A stretch of DNA of 11,106 nucleotides. Origin: Candidatus Latescibacterota bacterium. Lineage in GTDB: Bacteria; Latescibacterota; UBA2968; GCA-2709665. A program made the position numbers and the translations under genes. Position 1 is the first letter of the stretch; the number at the start of each line of letters is the position of its first letter. Under the pieces are notes generated by a model that did not search any database, was not told where the DNA came from, and was given only the letters and a program-made list of their open reading frames with translations. This document shows positions 2,840-11,106 of this stretch, piece after piece. Location: assembly GCA_012271065.1 (NCBI GenBank), contig JAAXHE010000161.1, positions 1-11,106 of the forward strand, written 5' to 3'.

Positions 2840-4432
2840 TCACTCAGGGTCCACACAGTGAAAACTGGCTGCCTCGTTCGGGTCCAGGTCCGGTGCCACC
2901 AGTCTTGCAACCTGTGGATAGGGGCACAAGGGGCGTGACAGCCCGCGCCCCCCGTCGTGGGTCGCCAGTATCGAGTCCGGTGCCCGGTCGTGGGTGACCC
3001 AGTCGTCGAGGGCCACAAGCACGGGGTGAAAGTCGATGGAAGGGCCATAGCCGCCGCCGCAATGGGCCATACCGGGGGCCATGAACAAGCGTACATGGTC
3101 GCGGAAGTCGGACTTCCCCCGCTTGCGGGAGACGGTTGACTCCATGGCTTCATACAGCTCGACCGTAGGTGTCGCGGTGACAACGGTGTCGCTCCAGCCG
3201 TGATAAAGGATGGCCTTGCCGCCGCGTTGCACGAAGGGCGTCACGTCGGGATTGTCGGCACGCGTCACTCCCGAGTAATAGGAAGAGTCGGCTGCGACGA
3301 CATCGTCGGGGTTATCGATGCTGAAGTCGTTCAGCAGATCCCTGTCCGGATCCTGGTACCAGACTTGGGCGAGATAGTCGAGATAGTCGCATTGTCCCGA
3401 TTCTTCCGGAGTTGCACATGCGCCCGCGGTAAAGCGCGCCCAGCCGCCCATGCCCATGCCGGCGCCATACTCGCCGCCGTGAAGGAGCCCGGGGTAGATG
3501 CGCTCGCCGGACGTGGTTACCGGGCCATCGTAGATCGTGCGGACGAATTCGACCTGGCTGTCCGTCAGGCACTGGGGCGGAGATTCGGACTCGCTGCACT
3601 GCAGAATGCCGGGATCGACGCGACATTGCCGGGGGTCGTCGATGATTTGGTCCTCGATCCCGTCGATGGCATCACAAGCGTCGAGCACGGCATCCTTCAG
3701 CAAGTTAAGCTGCTCGCCCGCGAGCGGCTGGTCTTCGGCATTGAGCCGGGCGACCTGTTGGGTCGTCCAGAGACCGGACACGATCATGCGAGCCGGCGAG
3801 AAGACCGGGGCGCCCACAATGATGCCGTCGAAATCTCCGGGATAGCGCTGCATGGCCATCAGCCCCTGGCGCCCGCCGGTGGAACAACCGCGAAAATAGG
3901 AGTGATCGGGTGCCCGCGCGTAGTACCCCTCGGCAAATTGCTTGCCGACAACCGTGGTCAGATGGACCGAACGATGCCCGAAATCTTCGATGGCGACATG
4001 GTTCGGCACGACTGTGCCGTCTGCCAGTTCCTTCATCACCCAATCTTCGGATGAACTCTGGACGTGACCGGTGTCCGTCTGACCGGTTGCGTATCCCAGT
4101 TCCAGCGCAAGCAGGGATAGATGATCTCTCTGAAACCTGCCGGCCGAGCCGCCGTTTCCGCCCATCAGAAACCGACCGTTCCACGCGGCGGCATCGGGAA
4201 ACCGGAATCTGAACCGGATCCGGCTCTCGCCGTCGTCGGCGTTGGCGATGACGCCCTCGAGCTGACAGTAGCCGCCAGCATCGTCAACCCGTTCAGCGCT
4301 GGCAAGCGTTACGCCGTGCGGTGACACCTCGGCGAAGCTCTGGAAGTCGGTGAGTTCGCACGGCACGGCCGGCGCGCAGACTGCCAGGGTCATTGAAAGA
4401 AAGAGCCACGTTGAATGGATTGGAAGCTTCAT
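2840..4432 (-). CDS. Exported tannase/feruloyl esterase family alpha/beta-hydrolase
   Basis: A 530-aa secreted serine esterase of the tannase/feruloyl esterase family (PF07519 type), normal in length. The N-terminus is a signal peptide (hydrophobic core about 9-20, cleavage near residue 24). Catalytic elements: Ser184 in RGCSTGGRQ, Asp415 in YHGWSDTVV and His457 in MAPGMAHCGG. Cys183 and Cys458 directly neighbour the Ser and His, the CS-D-HC arrangement in which a disulfide links the nucleophile and histidine loops. DACDAIDGIEDQIIDD (251-266) resembles the family's calcium loop. Likely activity is hydrolysis of esters of phenolic acids (gallate, ferulate, aryl esters) in the periplasm or outside the cell; the exact substrate cannot be read from sequence. 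The ATG at 4432 has only a weak GGGAT upstream. It is first in the minus-strand block and divergent from tRNA-Ala. Confidence 0.93.
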   Translation of the reverse strand: MKLPIHSTWLFLSMTLAVCAPAVPCELTDFQSFAEVSPHGVTLASAERVDDAGGYCQLEGVIANADDGESRIRFRFRFPDAAAWNGRFLMGGNGGSAGRFQRDHLSLLALELGYATGQTDTGHVQSSSEDWVMKELADGTVVPNHVAIEDFGHRSVHLTTVVGKQFAEGYYARAPDHSYFRGCSTGGRQGLMAMQRYPGDFDGIIVGAPVFSPARMIVSGLWTTQQVARLNAEDQPLAGEQLNLLKDAVLDACDAIDGIEDQIIDDPRQCRVDPGILQCSESESPPQCLTDSQVEFVRTIYDGPVTTSGERIYPGLLHGGEYGAGMGMGGWARFTAGACATPEESGQCDYLDYLAQVWYQDPDRDLLNDFSIDNPDDVVAADSSYYSGVTRADNPDVTPFVQRGGKAILYHGWSDTVVTATPTVELYEAMESTVSRKRGKSDFRDHVRLFMAPGMAHCGGGYGPSIDFHPVLVALDDWVTHDRAPDSILATHDGGRGLSRPLCPYPQVARLVAPDLDPNEAASFHCVDPE

Positions 4433-4616: not shown

Positions 4617-4692
4617 GGGGCCGTAGCTCAGTTGGGAGAGCGCTGCGTTCGCAATGCAGAGGTCGGGAGTTCGAATCTCCTCGGCTCCACCA
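4617..4692 (+). tRNA. tRNA-Ala (anticodon CGC)
   Basis: A complete 76-base cloverleaf. The acceptor arm GGGGCCG pairs with CGGCTCC and includes the G3:U70 wobble pair that is the alanine identity element. The D arm reads AGCTCAGTTGGGAGAGC. The anticodon stem CTGCG/TGCAG closes a seven-base loop TTCGCAA, giving anticodon CGC, which reads the Ala codon GCG. The T arm contains GTTCGAATC. Discriminator A is at 4689 and CCA is encoded at 4690-4692. No tRNA cluster or integrated element adjoins it, and I see no second copy of its 3' end that would indicate an attachment site. Confidence 0.97.
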
Positions 4693-4760: not shown

Positions 4761-5690
4761 ATGAATAAATTCAAACTACTGGCTCTCGCCGGATTGTTCC
4801 TGCTCAGTCAACAAGCTTACTCCCAGTACGAAACGAGCTGGGACAATGCCGAGCGCAGTATCAACCAGATATCCGAGCATGTGTATCGTTGGGGCGGCGG
4901 CGCCATGGGAGGGATCAGCGGATTGTTCGTTCCCACATCGGAAGGCATTATCGTGATCGACGGCCCCGGCACGCCGTGCGAGCCGGACGCCGGTCAGTGG
5001 TTCAAGGACGAGCTCGAACAACGCTACGACGTCCCGGTGCGCTATGTCGTGTTGAGCCATGACCACCAGAGCCACATCTGCGGCACGACGGTGTTTGCGG
5101 ACACAGCAGTGGCGATCGGTCACAAGAAGCTCCGGCCGCACCTGATCAGGGAGGGGCGCGTCGCGCCGATCCCGACGGTCTCGTTCGAGGAGTCGCTGGA
5201 TATCGACCTGGGCGGCGTGAAGGTCGTGTTGCACTACTTCGGCCCGACCCACAGCGACAACCTGATCGTCACCCACATACCCCAGGATGGCGTGTTGTTC
5301 GTGCCGGATCTGTCGCGCCCGGACGGCCAGCTGCCCAATCCGGATTTTCGCGACATGGACGTGGACAACACCATCGAGGTGCTGGGCATACTGGCACGTA
5401 TGGACGACGTGGACATCGTCATGCCGGGACATAACTCGCCTGTCGCGGACCAGTCCTACTTCCGCCGCTACCGGAACTACCTGTCGAGCATGAGGGAACA
5501 GGTCTTGGCCTACATGGTGGAGGGCCGCTCGCTGGAGGAGATTCTCGGGCTCGTGACGATGGACGACTTCGGGGACTACACCAACCTCGGGCAGGTTCTC
5601 GAGCGCAACGTCACCACCATGTATGACTACCTGTACCGATACCGGGAACCCAACTCACCGGGAGACTTGCCGATCAGGGCGGTGCAATAG
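4761..5690 (+). CDS. Exported metallo-beta-lactamase-fold hydrolase with Ser in the HxHxDH motif
   Basis: A 309-aa protein of the MBL superfamily, resembling the SoxH / subclass B3-like periplasmic group. A signal peptide (MNKFKLLALAGLFLLSQQAYS, cut before Gln22) points to the periplasm. Metal ligands in order: His100, His102, His105 in HDHQSH, His164 in GPTHSDN, Asp183 in FVPDLSRP and His224 in MPGHNSP. The Asp that usually precedes the third histidine (D120 in standard numbering) is Ser104, so the second metal site is altered. Other fold features (GLFVPTSEGIIVIDGP near the N-terminus) are normal. The substrate is unknown. The ATG at 4761 is preferred over an in-frame TTG at 4746 because it begins the signal peptide and has GGGGAT about eight bases upstream. 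It lies 68 bp after tRNA-Ala on the same strand and may be read through from it. Confidence 0.9.
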   Translation: MNKFKLLALAGLFLLSQQAYSQYETSWDNAERSINQISEHVYRWGGGAMGGISGLFVPTSEGIIVIDGPGTPCEPDAGQWFKDELEQRYDVPVRYVVLSHDHQSHICGTTVFADTAVAIGHKKLRPHLIREGRVAPIPTVSFEESLDIDLGGVKVVLHYFGPTHSDNLIVTHIPQDGVLFVPDLSRPDGQLPNPDFRDMDVDNTIEVLGILARMDDVDIVMPGHNSPVADQSYFRRYRNYLSSMREQVLAYMVEGRSLEEILGLVTMDDFGDYTNLGQVLERNVTTMYDYLYRYREPNSPGDLPIRAVQ

Positions 5691-5758: not shown

Positions 5759-6100
5759 TCAGTCGAAGACGCTTGAATACACGTCTACGTTGAATCCCAC
5801 CAGCACCGTTTCGCCGACTCGGGCCGTCGGCGCCCGCAGATTGCCCGTCCTTCCGAGCATGGCCTTGACGGCGTCATCCGAAGACAGGGTGTCGCCGGAG
5901 AACTCGCTGACCTTTCTGCCCATGGAAACGATCAGGCGCGATGCGCTCTCAAGCATGGCTGCCGCATCCGCTGCCTGCAGCTTCCTGCTCGCGGGTACCC
6001 GCTCGCCGATCTCAATGTGATTGGCCTCCAGAAACTTGGAAGCCCGGGTACAACCGGTTCACCCGGGGCGGTGGTAGTACCAGTCAACCTTGGCGGTCAT
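5759..6100 (-). CDS. ArsC/Spx-like thioredoxin-fold selenoprotein, TGA at codon 14 read as Sec
   Basis: A 113-aa protein if the TGA at 6061-6059 encodes selenocysteine. It begins MTAKVDWYYHRPG, then Sec14-Thr-Gly-Cys17, a U-x-x-C redox motif exactly where ArsC-related proteins carry their catalytic cysteine pair. It continues in one frame through ASRKLQAADAAAML to the ArsC-type C-terminus GNLRAPTARVGETVLVGFN (about 86-104). The ATG at 6100 has GGAGAG eight bases upstream. Without recoding only a 13-residue stub or the unsupported internal ATG at 5956 would remain. Both halves read as one family and the TGA is at the active site, so a random nonsense mutation is unlikely. The expected role is thiol/selenol redox chemistry in the cytosol; arsenate reduction is not shown. 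It ends the three-gene minus-strand unit, 21 bp after DUF6152. The terminal stop is also TGA (5761-5759). No selA/B/C/D is in the window, so decoding capacity is untested. Confidence 0.85.
6023..6044 (-). promoter_or_regulatory. Candidate bacterial SECIS hairpin
   Basis: In the mRNA of the ArsC-like gene, GGCUUCCA (6044-6037) pairs with UGGAGGCC (6030-6023): an 8-bp stem including one G-U, closed by the six-base loop AGUUUC. The loop GU lies 24-25 bases after the UGA, against 20-21 in E. coli fdhF, and within the range accepted for bacterial SECIS elements. It lies in the coding sequence directly downstream of the recoded codon, as required for SelB binding in bacteria. Confidence 0.75.
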
Positions 6101-6121
6101 CCTTGAATCTCTCCGTCTTGC

Positions 6122-6493
6122 CTAATCCCACTCTTTCACAACACCGTCAGGGGTTGTAATGAATCCCAGGAGGCACCCGGGGGAGCCATCCCTCAGTGCG
6201 TGGCATTTCACGTGAATCTCGTCGCCGGGCTTGAGTTCATCTTCTGTGATTCCGGCCCTGGTAAGCGTTGATGCGCCGGCGGCTTCCATGGCCCACGTCA
6301 CGATTTCCCCGCCATCTTGTTCCACGTCCATGTAGAGCCAGGCGTGGGGGTTGATGAAGTAGAGATCCGTCACCGTCCCATCGAGCTCGATGTACTGCGT
6401 CATCTCGTAGTTGCCGTGGGAGTGGTGCGCCCAACCGGTCAGTGTCACTGCCAGGGACGCGATGAAGACAAGGGCTGGTCGCTTTGGTTGCAT
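6122..6493 (-). CDS. Exported DUF6152 family protein (short form)
   Basis: A 123-aa protein comprising just the N-terminal DUF6152 unit. The signal peptide ends GWA at residues 20-22, leaving a mature protein that starts His-His-Ser-His. Family landmarks are IELDGTVTDLYFINPHAWLY (His50), TRAGITEDELKPGD and a C-terminal HALRDGSPGCLLG. Cys97 and Cys107 bracket the last motif, with His98 next to the first. The function is unknown. The ATG at 6493 has GGGAG about six bases upstream. The gene sits 39 bp after the unknown exported gene and 21 bp before the selenoprotein, so the three probably form one transcript. It is the second DUF6152 gene in the window and lacks the long C-terminal part of the one at 1760-2815. 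Confidence 0.88.
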   Translation of the reverse strand: MQPKRPALVFIASLAVTLTGWAHHSHGNYEMTQYIELDGTVTDLYFINPHAWLYMDVEQDGGEIVTWAMEAAGASTLTRAGITEDELKPGDEIHVKCHALRDGSPGCLLGFITTPDGVVKEWD

Positions 6494-6532: not shown

Positions 6533-7168
6533 CTAGCGGCGATATTCGCTGCCGGGCTTGATTTTCCGTACCTCGTGGAAGGTCGGATACATGATCCTGT
6601 TCCCGTTCTCGTCCAGGAACTCGAACGACTGCTGGAACATGCCGCCGGTCGGTGCCATGGGCGCGATAGTCGCCTCTATCGCGTAGAGCTTGCTCTGGAG
6701 CAGGTACAGGGCCGCAAATGTCCGCGTGCCGTCGGGATTGGTCGTATGAAGCTGGTGGCCATCGACCCGGCCGATGTAGTGGTAGTTGTCATACTCCACC
6801 GTTTCGGCTCTCTCGCGGATCATTCTGGCGAAATACGCCACGGACCCGCGTGGGTCCACTTCGCCGTAGACATCGAGATAGATGCCATCGAGCTCGGCGA
6901 TTCGTTCCCTGTGCAGCGCCATGGAATCGGTATAGTCGACCACGGTCAGGGTGTAGGTCCCGTACGAGTCTTCCGCTGTGTGAATCTGTGCCGGCACGAT
7001 GATCCCGTATTCGGTTTCGAAGTCGACGGTTTCGACTTCGAATTGGCCACCGGGCACCATGATCCGGAATTCGCCGTTCTCGCTTGTATATGGCGCCCAG
7101 CGCTGGGCGAAAGCTGAACTGCTGAAGATCAGCATCGTCGCAATTGAGATCAATCGCAGAGTGAACAT
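6533..7168 (-). CDS. Exported protein of unknown function
   Basis: A 211-aa protein I do not assign to a named family. The N-terminus MFTLRLISIATMLIFSSSAFA is a signal peptide with an AFA cleavage site before Gln22, so it is periplasmic or secreted. The mature part has no cysteine, no transmembrane segment and no evident catalytic motif. It starts with GEFRIMVPGGQFEVE, has a beta-strand-like YTLTVVDYTD, and ends with MFQQSFEFLDENGNRI, a layout seen in small alpha/beta periplasmic proteins that resemble stress or adhesion subunits; this likeness is only impressionistic. The ATG at 7168 has GAGG about nine bases upstream. It is the first gene of the three-gene unit with DUF6152 and the Sec protein, so its promoter should lie in the spacer to its right. 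Confidence 0.75.
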   Translation of the reverse strand: MFTLRLISIATMLIFSSSAFAQRWAPYTSENGEFRIMVPGGQFEVETVDFETEYGIIVPAQIHTAEDSYGTYTLTVVDYTDSMALHRERIAELDGIYLDVYGEVDPRGSVAYFARMIRERAETVEYDNYHYIGRVDGHQLHTTNPDGTRTFAALYLLQSKLYAIEATIAPMAPTGGMFQQSFEFLDENGNRIMYPTFHEVRKIKPGSEYRR

Positions 7169-7343: not shown

Positions 7344-7562
7344 TTATTCAGACCCCTTTGTGAGTGCCGCGCTCACCGGCGTGAACGTGGCCACGTCGCC
7401 GTTGGGGAACTCCATGCTCTTCAACCGCGAGGTGTTTTCCCTTGCCAGGCCGGGAATGCCGGGCCAGCCCACAACAATGGGCAAGAGGTCGCCCGGGCTG
7501 AGCATGGAGGCACTGATGCCTCCGCGCGTGGAAAATGTCGGGAGAAGTATTCGATTTCCGGT
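7344..7562 (-). pseudogene. Possible coding remnant, 72 open codons, unrecognised
   Basis: One minus-strand frame is open for 72 codons before a TAA at 7346-7344 and has strongly G/C third positions like the neighbouring genes. It reads naturally (GDLLPIVVGWPGIPGL, SRLKSMEFPNGDVATF, ending ALTKGSE). Upstream it is closed by tandem TGA codons (7568-7563), and the first internal ATG (about 7505) would give only about 53 residues. The opposite plus-strand frame shares the same third positions and is also open, so the strand is uncertain. It could be the 3' end of a decayed gene, a small gene, or chance in GC-rich DNA. I cannot name a family. Confidence 0.3.
7506..7523. repeat. Perfect inverted repeat, 7-bp arms, 4-base loop
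   Basis: GGAGGCA (7506-7512) and TGCCTCC (7517-7523) flank CTGA. No T-run follows on either strand, so it is not a typical intrinsic terminator. It lies within the possible coding remnant, upstream of its internal ATG on the minus strand. Confidence 0.4.
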
Positions 7563-7650
7563 TCATCAGGTGTCCCGGACCATTATGAGTCGTCCCGGTT
7601 TGTGGCGCCGGAGAATGCGCAACCCGTCCGATTGCCGCGATCGTTTCGAG

Positions 7651-9102
7651 TTATGGCCCCGCTGTCCGTGCGTCGGGCTCATTGTGTCGCGGAAGCCAAT
7701 CCTTCAGTCCGGCCTTGACAGCCGAAAGGGCGGGGTCCGCGGCGCGGTTCGTCCACTCGTGCGGGTCGGTGTCAAGGTCGTAGAGTTCTTCCGAACCGTC
7801 CGAGTAGACAATGTAACGGTGGCGCTCACTGCTGACCGCATGGTTGCGGTATCCAAACGTGGTCACCACGCCCGCTCGCTCCAGGGTAGCTTCCGGATCC
7901 TCAAGCAAGGGCAGCAGACTCAGCCCCTCAACGTGATTCGGCGTAGGCAACCCGGCCAGTTCGGTGAGCGTGGAGTACAGATCCAGCAGCGACACGGGCG
8001 CGTTCGAGCGGCTCCCTGGCTGTGTGACACCCGGGGCCACCACAATCAATAGAACGCGCGTGGATTCCCGCCACAGGGTCTGCTTGCGCCAGCGGGCCTT
8101 TTCGCCCAGGTGAAATCCGTGATCCGACCACATGACGATGATTGTCTCGGCTGCCCGACCGCTTTGCTCCAGCGCGTCGAGCACGTGACCCAGCATGGCA
8201 TCGGCGAAGCTGATGCTGGCGAGATACGCCTGCACGCCGTCCTTCCAGACGCCCGCCTCCTGCGCCCACTGGTGTACTTCCATCGGTGACCCGAAGTTCG
8301 TACCCTGCATTCTGGCGATCTCGGAAATGTCGTCGAGATCGTTTTCCAGGACGGGTGGAAGTTCCACGGTGTCCAGCGGGTACAGATCGAAATACTTCTG
8401 CGGCAGGTACCAGGGCAGATGGGGACGATAGATGCCCACTGCATCGAATCGGGGACCGTCGGTTTCGGTCAGGAGCTGACGCGCCGACCAGGCAGCGACC
8501 TGACCGTCACCCATGGCGCGGTCGTCGGCGAAAATCGGCGCCCAGTCGAACCTCGCGTCGTGGGGGTTGTCGTTGGCCGGGAGAACGTGGGGCCTGATTT
8601 CGTCGGGGATCTGCCGATCCAGGGACGGATAGTAGGCATCCCAGGCGGTGGTGTCATTGTAGCCGTAATAGGCCCAGGCACTGAAGGTGCTGGAGTGGAA
8701 CAGCTTGCCGGCGCCATAGGTTGTGTAGCCGGCATCCTGGAAGTACCCGGGTATCGTCCGAATGTCCTGGAAGATTTCCATCGTACGCCAGTCCGGCTGG
8801 TTCACGTAAACGCCGGTCGTCGCGGCGCTCAGACCGGTCATGAGAGCCGTCCGGGCGGGATTGCACAGTACGGAGGTTGAATGCGCGTTGGTGAAGACCA
8901 TGCCTCGTTCGGCGAGGCGGTCCATGTTCGGCGTCTTCGCCTGCGGGTGCCCGTCGAGCGGTCCGACCCAGTCGTTCAGGTCGTCGATGGAAATGAACAG
9001 GATGTCGGGAGGGGTAGCCGGTTGTGCGTGCAGGCACGCTGCCGGCAGAGCCAGTATGAACAGAAGTACAACGATAGGGTGCGGCGACCTCACGGAGCGC
9101 AT
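7651..9102 (-). CDS. Exported formylglycine sulfatase, iduronate-2-sulfatase-like
   Basis: A 483-aa sulfatase. The signal peptide runs to about residue 26 (LPAACLHA before Gln27). DILFISIDDLNDW supplies metal ligands Asp40 and Asp41. Cys80 starts LCNPARTALMTG, the C-x-P-x-R signature in which the cysteine becomes formylglycine. Further active-site segments are GAGKLFH (Lys133, His136), YRPHLPWY (His228), MWSDHGFHLGEK (Asp327-His328) and RWRKQTLWRE. The SIDDLNDWVG start and the DHGFHLGEK motif favour the iduronate-2-sulfatase-like subgroup, but the sulfate ester substrate cannot be fixed. No maturase (FGE or anSME) is encoded in the window. The ATG at 9102 lacks a Shine-Dalgarno sequence and overlaps a TATAAT; GTG at 9093, three codons on, is an alternative start that keeps the signal peptide. 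It is transcribed divergently from the DUF4159 gene. Confidence 0.92.
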   Translation of the reverse strand: MRSVRSPHPIVVLLFILALPAACLHAQPATPPDILFISIDDLNDWVGPLDGHPQAKTPNMDRLAERGMVFTNAHSTSVLCNPARTALMTGLSAATTGVYVNQPDWRTMEIFQDIRTIPGYFQDAGYTTYGAGKLFHSSTFSAWAYYGYNDTTAWDAYYPSLDRQIPDEIRPHVLPANDNPHDARFDWAPIFADDRAMGDGQVAAWSARQLLTETDGPRFDAVGIYRPHLPWYLPQKYFDLYPLDTVELPPVLENDLDDISEIARMQGTNFGSPMEVHQWAQEAGVWKDGVQAYLASISFADAMLGHVLDALEQSGRAAETIIVMWSDHGFHLGEKARWRKQTLWRESTRVLLIVVAPGVTQPGSRSNAPVSLLDLYSTLTELAGLPTPNHVEGLSLLPLLEDPEATLERAGVVTTFGYRNHAVSSERHRYIVYSDGSEELYDLDTDPHEWTNRAADPALSAVKAGLKDWLPRHNEPDARTAGP

Positions 9103-10098: not shown

Positions 10099-11106
10099 AT
10101 GACAACAAAAACAAACGTCCGGACGCCCGCGCTCATTCTGGTTCCGGCCCTGGTCCTGTCCGGTACGCTGAATGCGGCCCCGAATATCCTGCTTATCATC
10201 GGCGACGACATGGGTGTGGAGACGCTGGCCTCCTACGAGGTGGGAGAGAACCCTCCGGCGACCGGCGCCCTGGATGAACTGGCCCGTCAGGGTGTGCGTT
10301 TCACGAGTTTCTGGTCCCAGCCGATCTGTTCGCCCACCCGCGCGACCCTGCTCACGGGCCGCTACGGATTCCGAACCGGCGTCGGCCGGCCCATCGCGCA
10401 CGGGCCGCCCATGCCCGAACCCCCCGCGAGGCCCGAGTGGGCAACTTTCGAGGGTCCGGTGCCGGAAAGGCCCGCGTTCGATGCGCCCCTGTACCTTCGG
10501 CCCGAAGAGTTCACCCTGCCCATGGCATTCAAGGCCAACGCCGACCCCGGGTACGCGACTGCGGCCATCGGCAAGTGGCATCTGGCCAATGCCGCGAATG
10601 GTTGGATCGACCACCCCAATCTCGCGGGCTTCGATCACTTTTCGGGGCTGATCGAGGGGGAATTCGTTTCCTACTTCAGCTGGAACAAGGTCGTCGACGG
10701 CGAGGTCGCGGGAACCAGCGGCTATGCGCCCGTCGACAAGGCGGAAGACGCCATCCGGTGGATCGATGAGCGGAGCGATGAACCGTGGTTCATGTGGTTT
10801 GCATTCAATCTTCCGCATATTCCGATGCATCTGCCGCCCGAAGACACCTGGCAGTCGGACTACTCGCACCTGGACCCCGCATCCATACCCGAAGGGATGT
10901 CCGGCGCCTATTTCGCGGCCATGATCGAGGCCATGGACACGCAGATCGACCGAATTCTGTCGTCGCTGGATCCCGACGTTCGCGAAAACACCTACGTGAT
11001 TTTCATGGGGGACAACGGCACTGCGGGTATCAACGCGAGTCCGCCATTCCGGCGGGGACGGGGAAAGAACTCCGTCTACGAGGGCGGCGTCAACGTGCCG
11101 TTGATC
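10099..11106 (+). CDS. Exported arylsulfatase-type sulfatase, 3' end missing
   Basis: The first 336 codons of a sulfatase that runs off the right edge. The signal peptide ends near AAP at residues 26-28. PNILLIIGDDMGVETL gives metal ligands Asp36 and Asp37. Cys77 begins CSPTRATLLTGRYGFRTG, the full formylglycine signature. AIGKWHLA holds Lys159 and His161, NLPHIPMH holds His240, IFMGDNGT holds Asp305-Asn306, and GKNSVYEGGVNVP the conserved Lys323. This is the arylsulfatase A / choline-sulfatase style active site and differs from the iduronate-sulfatase-like gene at 7651-9102, so the two are not a recent duplication. The ATG at 10099 has only a weak GGAC upstream. The substrate is unknown. The protein should be periplasmic and needs a formylglycine maturase from elsewhere in the genome. 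Confidence 0.93.
   Translation, partial: MTTKTNVRTPALILVPALVLSGTLNAAPNILLIIGDDMGVETLASYEVGENPPATGALDELARQGVRFTSFWSQPICSPTRATLLTGRYGFRTGVGRPIAHGPPMPEPPARPEWATFEGPVPERPAFDAPLYLRPEEFTLPMAFKANADPGYATAAIGKWHLANAANGWIDHPNLAGFDHFSGLIEGEFVSYFSWNKVVDGEVAGTSGYAPVDKAEDAIRWIDERSDEPWFMWFAFNLPHIPMHLPPEDTWQSDYSHLDPASIPEGMSGAYFAAMIEAMDTQIDRILSSLDPDVRENTYVIFMGDNGTAGINASPPFRRGRGKNSVYEGGVNVPLI

Follow-up and report, generated by a model that had tools for sequence, protein, structure and literature searches.

Arsenate reductase-like selenoproteins are already known from surveys of marine DNA, and the closest described relatives of the gene treated here are found among them. Table 2 of the 2008 Global Ocean Sampling (GOS) survey has an entry 'Arsenate reductase 2' (cd03032) with a UxxC motif, in which U is selenocysteine (Sec), that comprises 42 selenoproteins from 21 samples and 238 Cys homologs (PMC2398784). 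A 2022 review enters an 'Arsenate reductase-like protein' of COG1393 with the same motif (PMC9312934), and a 2026 review gives this name to NF041106, listed as a UxxC selenoprotein with the GOS survey as its source (PMC13188914). By way of that citation, rather than by a direct comparison of sequences, 'Arsenate reductase 2' and NF041106 would be one family. A selenoprotein 'arsenate reductase' entered from the Sargasso Sea, also of COG1393, carries UxxS (PMC1088965) and occupies a separate row in the table of the 2026 review (PMC13188914). The main text of PMC12013277 mentions neither ArsC, arsenate reductase nor NCBIfam, and no functional study of the NF041106 family was found in the literature searched. 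The gene considered here lies on contig JAAXHE010000161.1 of a Candidatus Latescibacterota assembly (GCA_012271065.1), within a stretch of 11,106 nucleotides referred to throughout as the window, and it is almost certainly a selenoprotein gene of NF041106.

The reading frame and its family

The original prediction described a 65-codon frame that reaches upstream through a single TGA to an ATG, with the TGA set in RPG-U-TGC to give U-x-x-C; its coordinates, its length and the position of U14 are all correct, and the strand, which is the minus strand, can now be supplied. Read from the ATG at 6100 to 5759, the frame gives MTAKVDWYYHRPG-U-TGCTRASKFLEAN..., a product of 113 residues with one internal TGA and the motif R-P-G-U-T-G-C (U14-T-G-C17), as had been proposed, whilst translation by table 11 gives an open reading frame of just 65 residues (5759-5956). 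A GGAGAG stretch stands 14 to 9 nt 5' of the ATG.

The full product matches the NCBIfam model NF041106, 'ArsC family (seleno)protein', at 103.9 bits against a cut-off of 85 and over model positions 1-107 of 107, with U14-T-G-C17 in the U/C-x-x-C form that the model calls for. No protein over this cut-off was found in 14 well-known control genomes. Relatives were collected by two overlapping protein searches; the top 120 from each, out of 171 and out of at least 6588 matches, together make 222 different listed proteins. In a joint alignment 168 of these start beyond the Sec column and 54 occupy it, with Trp in 30, Cys in 22, Ser in one (P0156) and Met in one (P0062), and the second Cys is kept in 53 of the 54. 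P0062, which has Leu at that Cys column, looks like an entry that begins at a start codon inside the motif.

The tryptophan entries are most simply explained as TGA translated by genetic code 4, because P0003, a protein 93% identical by blastp to two proteins from related genomes that have TGA in their DNA, also shows Trp where those relatives have their TGA stop. Homologs with Cys or Sec at position 14 had been looked to for support of the selenoprotein, and the listed relatives that span the position supply it as the 22 with Cys and the 30 with an apparent code-4 Trp. The gene had also been called hidden from standard annotation: this is so in that most listed entries begin past the TGA, but not in that a curated (seleno)protein model for it already exists. 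As a matter for annotation in its own right, the 30 public entries with Trp (P0003, P0004, P0006, P0015 and 26 others) are, on their apparent code-4 reading, a hazard in any re-annotation.

Conservation in related genomes

A gene over the family cut-off is present in 6 of 396 genomes from the order (G001, G002, G003, G388, G401 and G412, the kin set below), and the same six are found among the 22 genomes of the family to which G002 belongs. Wider draws from the class (1/369) and the phylum (1/398) each returned G002 itself, and a scan of genome contigs found copies on three named contigs of metagenome-assembled genomes (MAGs), with best-segment identities of 85, 87 and 92%. The class and order draws, in which 109/369 and 104/396 genomes had any match at E 0.001, also gave stop-free matches below the cut-off, which are taken as ordinary ArsC relatives. 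No relative of the gene was matched in a plasmid search, and of 56 stretches on viral contigs that fit the pattern none encodes one.

Each of the six kin copies has exactly one internal TGA, and when they are aligned with the window gene it occupies one codon column in 7/7; all six kin have GGAG or GGGAG 5' of their ATGs. Across the 21 pairs the ratio of nonsynonymous to synonymous differences (pN/pS) is 0.51 for the part that precedes the TGA, which has just 13 codons, 0.32 for the 34 codons after it and 0.35 for the remainder, and by this measure purifying selection acts across the whole read-through, on both sides of the TGA. Because the TGA stays at one column in all seven genes and given these pN/pS values, the frame 5' of the TGA is most likely coding. 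The in-frame TGA thus sits at a conserved Cys position with the frame kept to either side, and degraded copies in close relatives, which the original prediction held would speak against it, were not seen: 7/7 are intact apart from the TGA. The observation of a TGA-interrupted ArsC-like frame therefore stands, and its interpretation as a selenoprotein is supported.

Selenocysteine machinery

All six kin genomes have a tRNA-Sec match of 77-82 bits, a level reached in 2/14 control genomes and the only one counted here; weaker matches of 47.7 to 49.5 bits, barely above the gathering score of 47, were left uncounted because 5/14 controls also pass that score. selD is over its cut-off in 6/6 and selB in 5/6, each against 2/14 controls, and the sixth genome (G412) has, on its tRNA-Sec contig, a selB piece of 206 bits that covers profile positions 51-353 in a 644-residue frame. 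selA was examined in G002 only, where it (547.9 bits), selB and tRNA-Sec stand side by side. Within the family of G002 tRNA-Sec is found in 6/6 genomes with the gene and 8/16 without it, a borderline difference (Fisher p 0.051).

Two further observations concern these loci. The SelD matches of the six kin (L126-L131) sit in open frames of 752-788 residues, compared with a model of 311 positions, which suggests from the sequence that these SelD proteins are fused. In G003 and G002 a relative of DUF6152 type (L086 10169-11176 and L087 1778-2788), which shares 43-44% identity with the protein encoded at 1760-2815 of the window, is found no more than about 4 kb from selB/tRNA-Sec.

A candidate SECIS element

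In the model of the bacterial selenocysteine insertion sequence (bSECIS) given in the legend of Fig. 2 of PMC13188914, a stem of 4-16 bp carries a loop of 3-9 nt with a G within the first two loop positions; further limits in the same source are a distance of 16-37 nt from the UGA and a minimum free energy of at most -7.5. A stem-loop that fits this model is found in 7/7 genes, with a stem of 6-8 bp and 21-22 nt from TGA to loop. The loops are AGUUUC, AGUUCC, UGGUUUCU or UGGUUCCU, and one stem pair varies among the genes as U-G, U-A and C-G. The stem-loop was not accepted as proof, since chance alone satisfies the model too frequently and the folding energy does not stand out; a shape of this kind is consistent with Sec decoding, not proof of it.

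Fold and proposed chemistry

A structure predicted from the window protein and 44 of the 222 listed relatives has a mean pLDDT (predicted local distance difference test) of 93.5, and its best matches among solved structures are Spx and ArsC-family proteins, with the UxxC of the window protein aligned on the CxxC of Spx. The predicted fold is thus of the thioredoxin (Trx)/Spx/ArsC-like kind. No signal-like stretch is seen by eye before Sec14, and the product is probably cytoplasmic.

UGA codon 14 would be decoded as Sec by SelB and tRNA-Sec, aided perhaps by the stem-loop just downstream, and the Sec14 selenolate would then attack a disulfide or another oxidised substrate, after which Cys17 may resolve the Se-S bond, by analogy with UxxC redox proteins. 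That the organism of the window decodes UGA in this way, that catalysis follows this course and that the substrate is a disulfide and not arsenate are inferences. Taken whole, it is very likely that the gene product is a Sec-decoded selenol/thiol oxidoreductase of NF041106, with a Trx fold and UxxC disulfide chemistry.

Alternative explanations

One objection is that the TGA is a plain stop or that the gene is a pseudogene, so that a 65-residue piece or nothing is made. In favour of this, table 11 yields just the short frame, and most listed database entries begin past the Sec column. The bare pattern is common: of the 37 window frames that have at least 90 codons after a TGA, 9 have an ATG that precedes the TGA by 13 codons or more. 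The stem-loop is of little help, for the bSECIS model is also passed by 470 of 2000 synonymous resamples and by 394 of 2834 ordinary stretches read in frame, about 9% of the synonymous resamples retain all six core pairs, and the folding energy is unremarkable (z -2.5 to -1.0). Truncated entries would, however, be expected from gene callers that have no rule for Sec, and the seven aligned genes have TGA, never another stop or a sense codon, with the 13 upstream codons in frame and under the constraint given above. The pattern is more than chance because the TGA codon is conserved, selection extends over the whole length and the full product is over a curated cut-off, and termination at this TGA is highly improbable. 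A second account of the same codon, that the organism reads TGA as Trp throughout as in code 4, can point to the many relatives with Trp, but TGA ends 4/8 other window genes checked as well as all seven copies of the gene itself, P0003 looks like an automatic code-4 reading, and tRNA-Sec is present in the kin; there is next to no chance that it is correct.

If the protein does contain Sec, its name and fold raise two other possibilities as to what it does. The family name and the ArsC-type matches would suit a selenium-containing arsenate reductase with Sec14 as the nucleophile on arsenate, but the Pfam model of ArsC (PF03960) scores 17.8 bits, below its gathering score of 24, and a Pfam scan of ten further proteins of the window brought up no arsenic-resistance family. 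Furthermore, R89-A90-P91 is invariant in the 45 aligned sequences and aligns on the RRP of Spx, so that in this alignment, which was made to Spx, Ala90 stands directly before the cis-Pro-type proline where Spx has Arg and where ArsC presumably has its catalytic Arg (R94 of the plasmid-encoded enzyme of E. coli). An arsenate reductase is therefore unlikely. The structural matches would likewise suit an Spx-like transcription factor with a Sec-Cys in place of a Cys-Cys redox switch, but the score for Spx/MgsR (TIGR01617) is 22.8 bits against a curated cut-off of 75.05, and the alignment leaves a gap in the query profile opposite residues 51-54 or so of Spx; this stretch holds G52, which is needed for binding the alpha C-terminal domain of RNA polymerase. 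Such a factor is very doubtful, and the product is probably neither an arsenate reductase nor an Spx regulator, which leaves the selenol/thiol oxidoreductase of NF041106 as the preferred reading. A more ambitious idea, that the protein is an Spx-type regulator, or a redox relay partner of its DUF6152 and metallo-beta-lactamase-fold neighbours, with selenium at the switch, is a long shot, though if true the supply of selenium would be linked to a lineage-specific process.

Neighbourhood of the gene

The features of the window are collected in Table 1. The order of 211-residue gene, DUF6152 gene and selenoprotein gene is direct in the window and in G001, G002, G003 and G401, but is interrupted in G388 and G412, where the opposite strand carries a long open frame in between. 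Among the 22 genomes of the family of G002, 17 have relatives of the 211-residue protein, a single genome giving as many as 17 matches, and of the 20 loci that were compared (L106-L125) 18 have a DUF6152 relative close to the 211-residue gene. On these gene orders, the two form a two-gene unit that is repeated in the lineage. The pair occurs also where no selenoprotein gene was found (for example G470 and G438), and because of this its link to the selenoprotein gene is weak. An operon with DUF6152 was considered as a clue to function and is weakened both by the split order in G388 and G412 and by such pairs. The word DUF6152 is absent from the literature searched. In 6/6 kin a relative of the metallo-beta-lactamase-fold protein is found no further than about 6.5 kb from the selenoprotein gene.

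Elsewhere in the window, a frame at 7476-7682 on the minus strand matches just the first 60 residues of a 264-residue open frame that locus L084 has at the corresponding place (3172-3966). In the window most of the length of this gene has apparently been lost, because between the flanking aligned blocks there are about 57 bases here and about 1.0 kb in L084. The two sulfatases and the tannase-family protein each open with a stretch that by eye resembles a signal peptide.

Table 1. Positions of the selenoprotein gene, its parts and other features of the window.
Feature	Coordinates	Strand	Evidence or remark
Full selenoprotein gene	5759..6100	(-)	113 codons + TGA stop; ArsC-like/Trx-fold, Sec14-x-x-Cys17
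Internal TGA at codon 14, most likely selenocysteine	6059..6061	(-)	Same aligned column in 7/7 genes; Cys/Trp in listed homologs
Terminal TGA, taken as stop	5759..5761	(-)	TGA in 6/6 kin too
Gap to same-strand upstream gene, with GGAGAG ribosome-site-like stretch	6101..6121	(-)	Sequence
Candidate bacterial SECIS (8 bp stem, 6-nt loop AGUUUC, 22 nt between TGA and loop)	6023..6044	(-)	Fits PMC13188914 model; weak specificity
DUF6152 protein, 123 residues, directly upstream of selenoprotein gene (gap 21 nt)	6122..6493	(-)	Pfam PF19649, 98.7 bits; neighbour in kin
211-residue protein, upstream of DUF6152 gene	6533..7168	(-)	No Pfam/NCBIfam match at E 0.001
Metallo-beta-lactamase-fold protein, convergent	4761..5690	(+)	Pfam PF00753
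tRNA-Ala, anticodon CGC	4617-4692	(+)	
Two sulfatases and tannase-family protein	7651-9102, 10099-11106, 2840-4432	(-), (+), (-)	Pfam scan

Comparison with known systems

The gene adds a new sequence to a known selenoprotein family, a conclusion that is well supported and of low surprise. What is gained is a set of well-placed members for a catalogued family, together with an illustration of what becomes of such genes in public databases, where most listed entries start downstream and many others have Trp, which is useful for re-annotation; the biological weight is small until the substrate is known.

Against NF041106 (ArsC_rel_Se_1) itself there is nothing of substance that differs, the window protein being a full-length match over the cut-off with an N-terminal UxxC. 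The caution of the original prediction about the novelty of the family was justified: the family is NF041106, and a UxxC arsenate reductase-like selenoprotein already stands in the published lists (PMC9312934, PMC2398784, PMC13188914). With 'Arsenate reductase 2' of the GOS list (PMC2398784) it shares an ArsC-like character and Sec-x-x-Cys, and the Sargasso Sea entry (PMC1088965) is likewise an ArsC-type selenoprotein, but with UxxS where the window protein has UxxC. Spx (PDB 1z3e, 3ihq, 6gho) resembles the window protein in fold and in the position of its redox pair; the window protein differs in having Sec for the first Cys, no stretch that matches Spx 51-54, and RAP for RRP.
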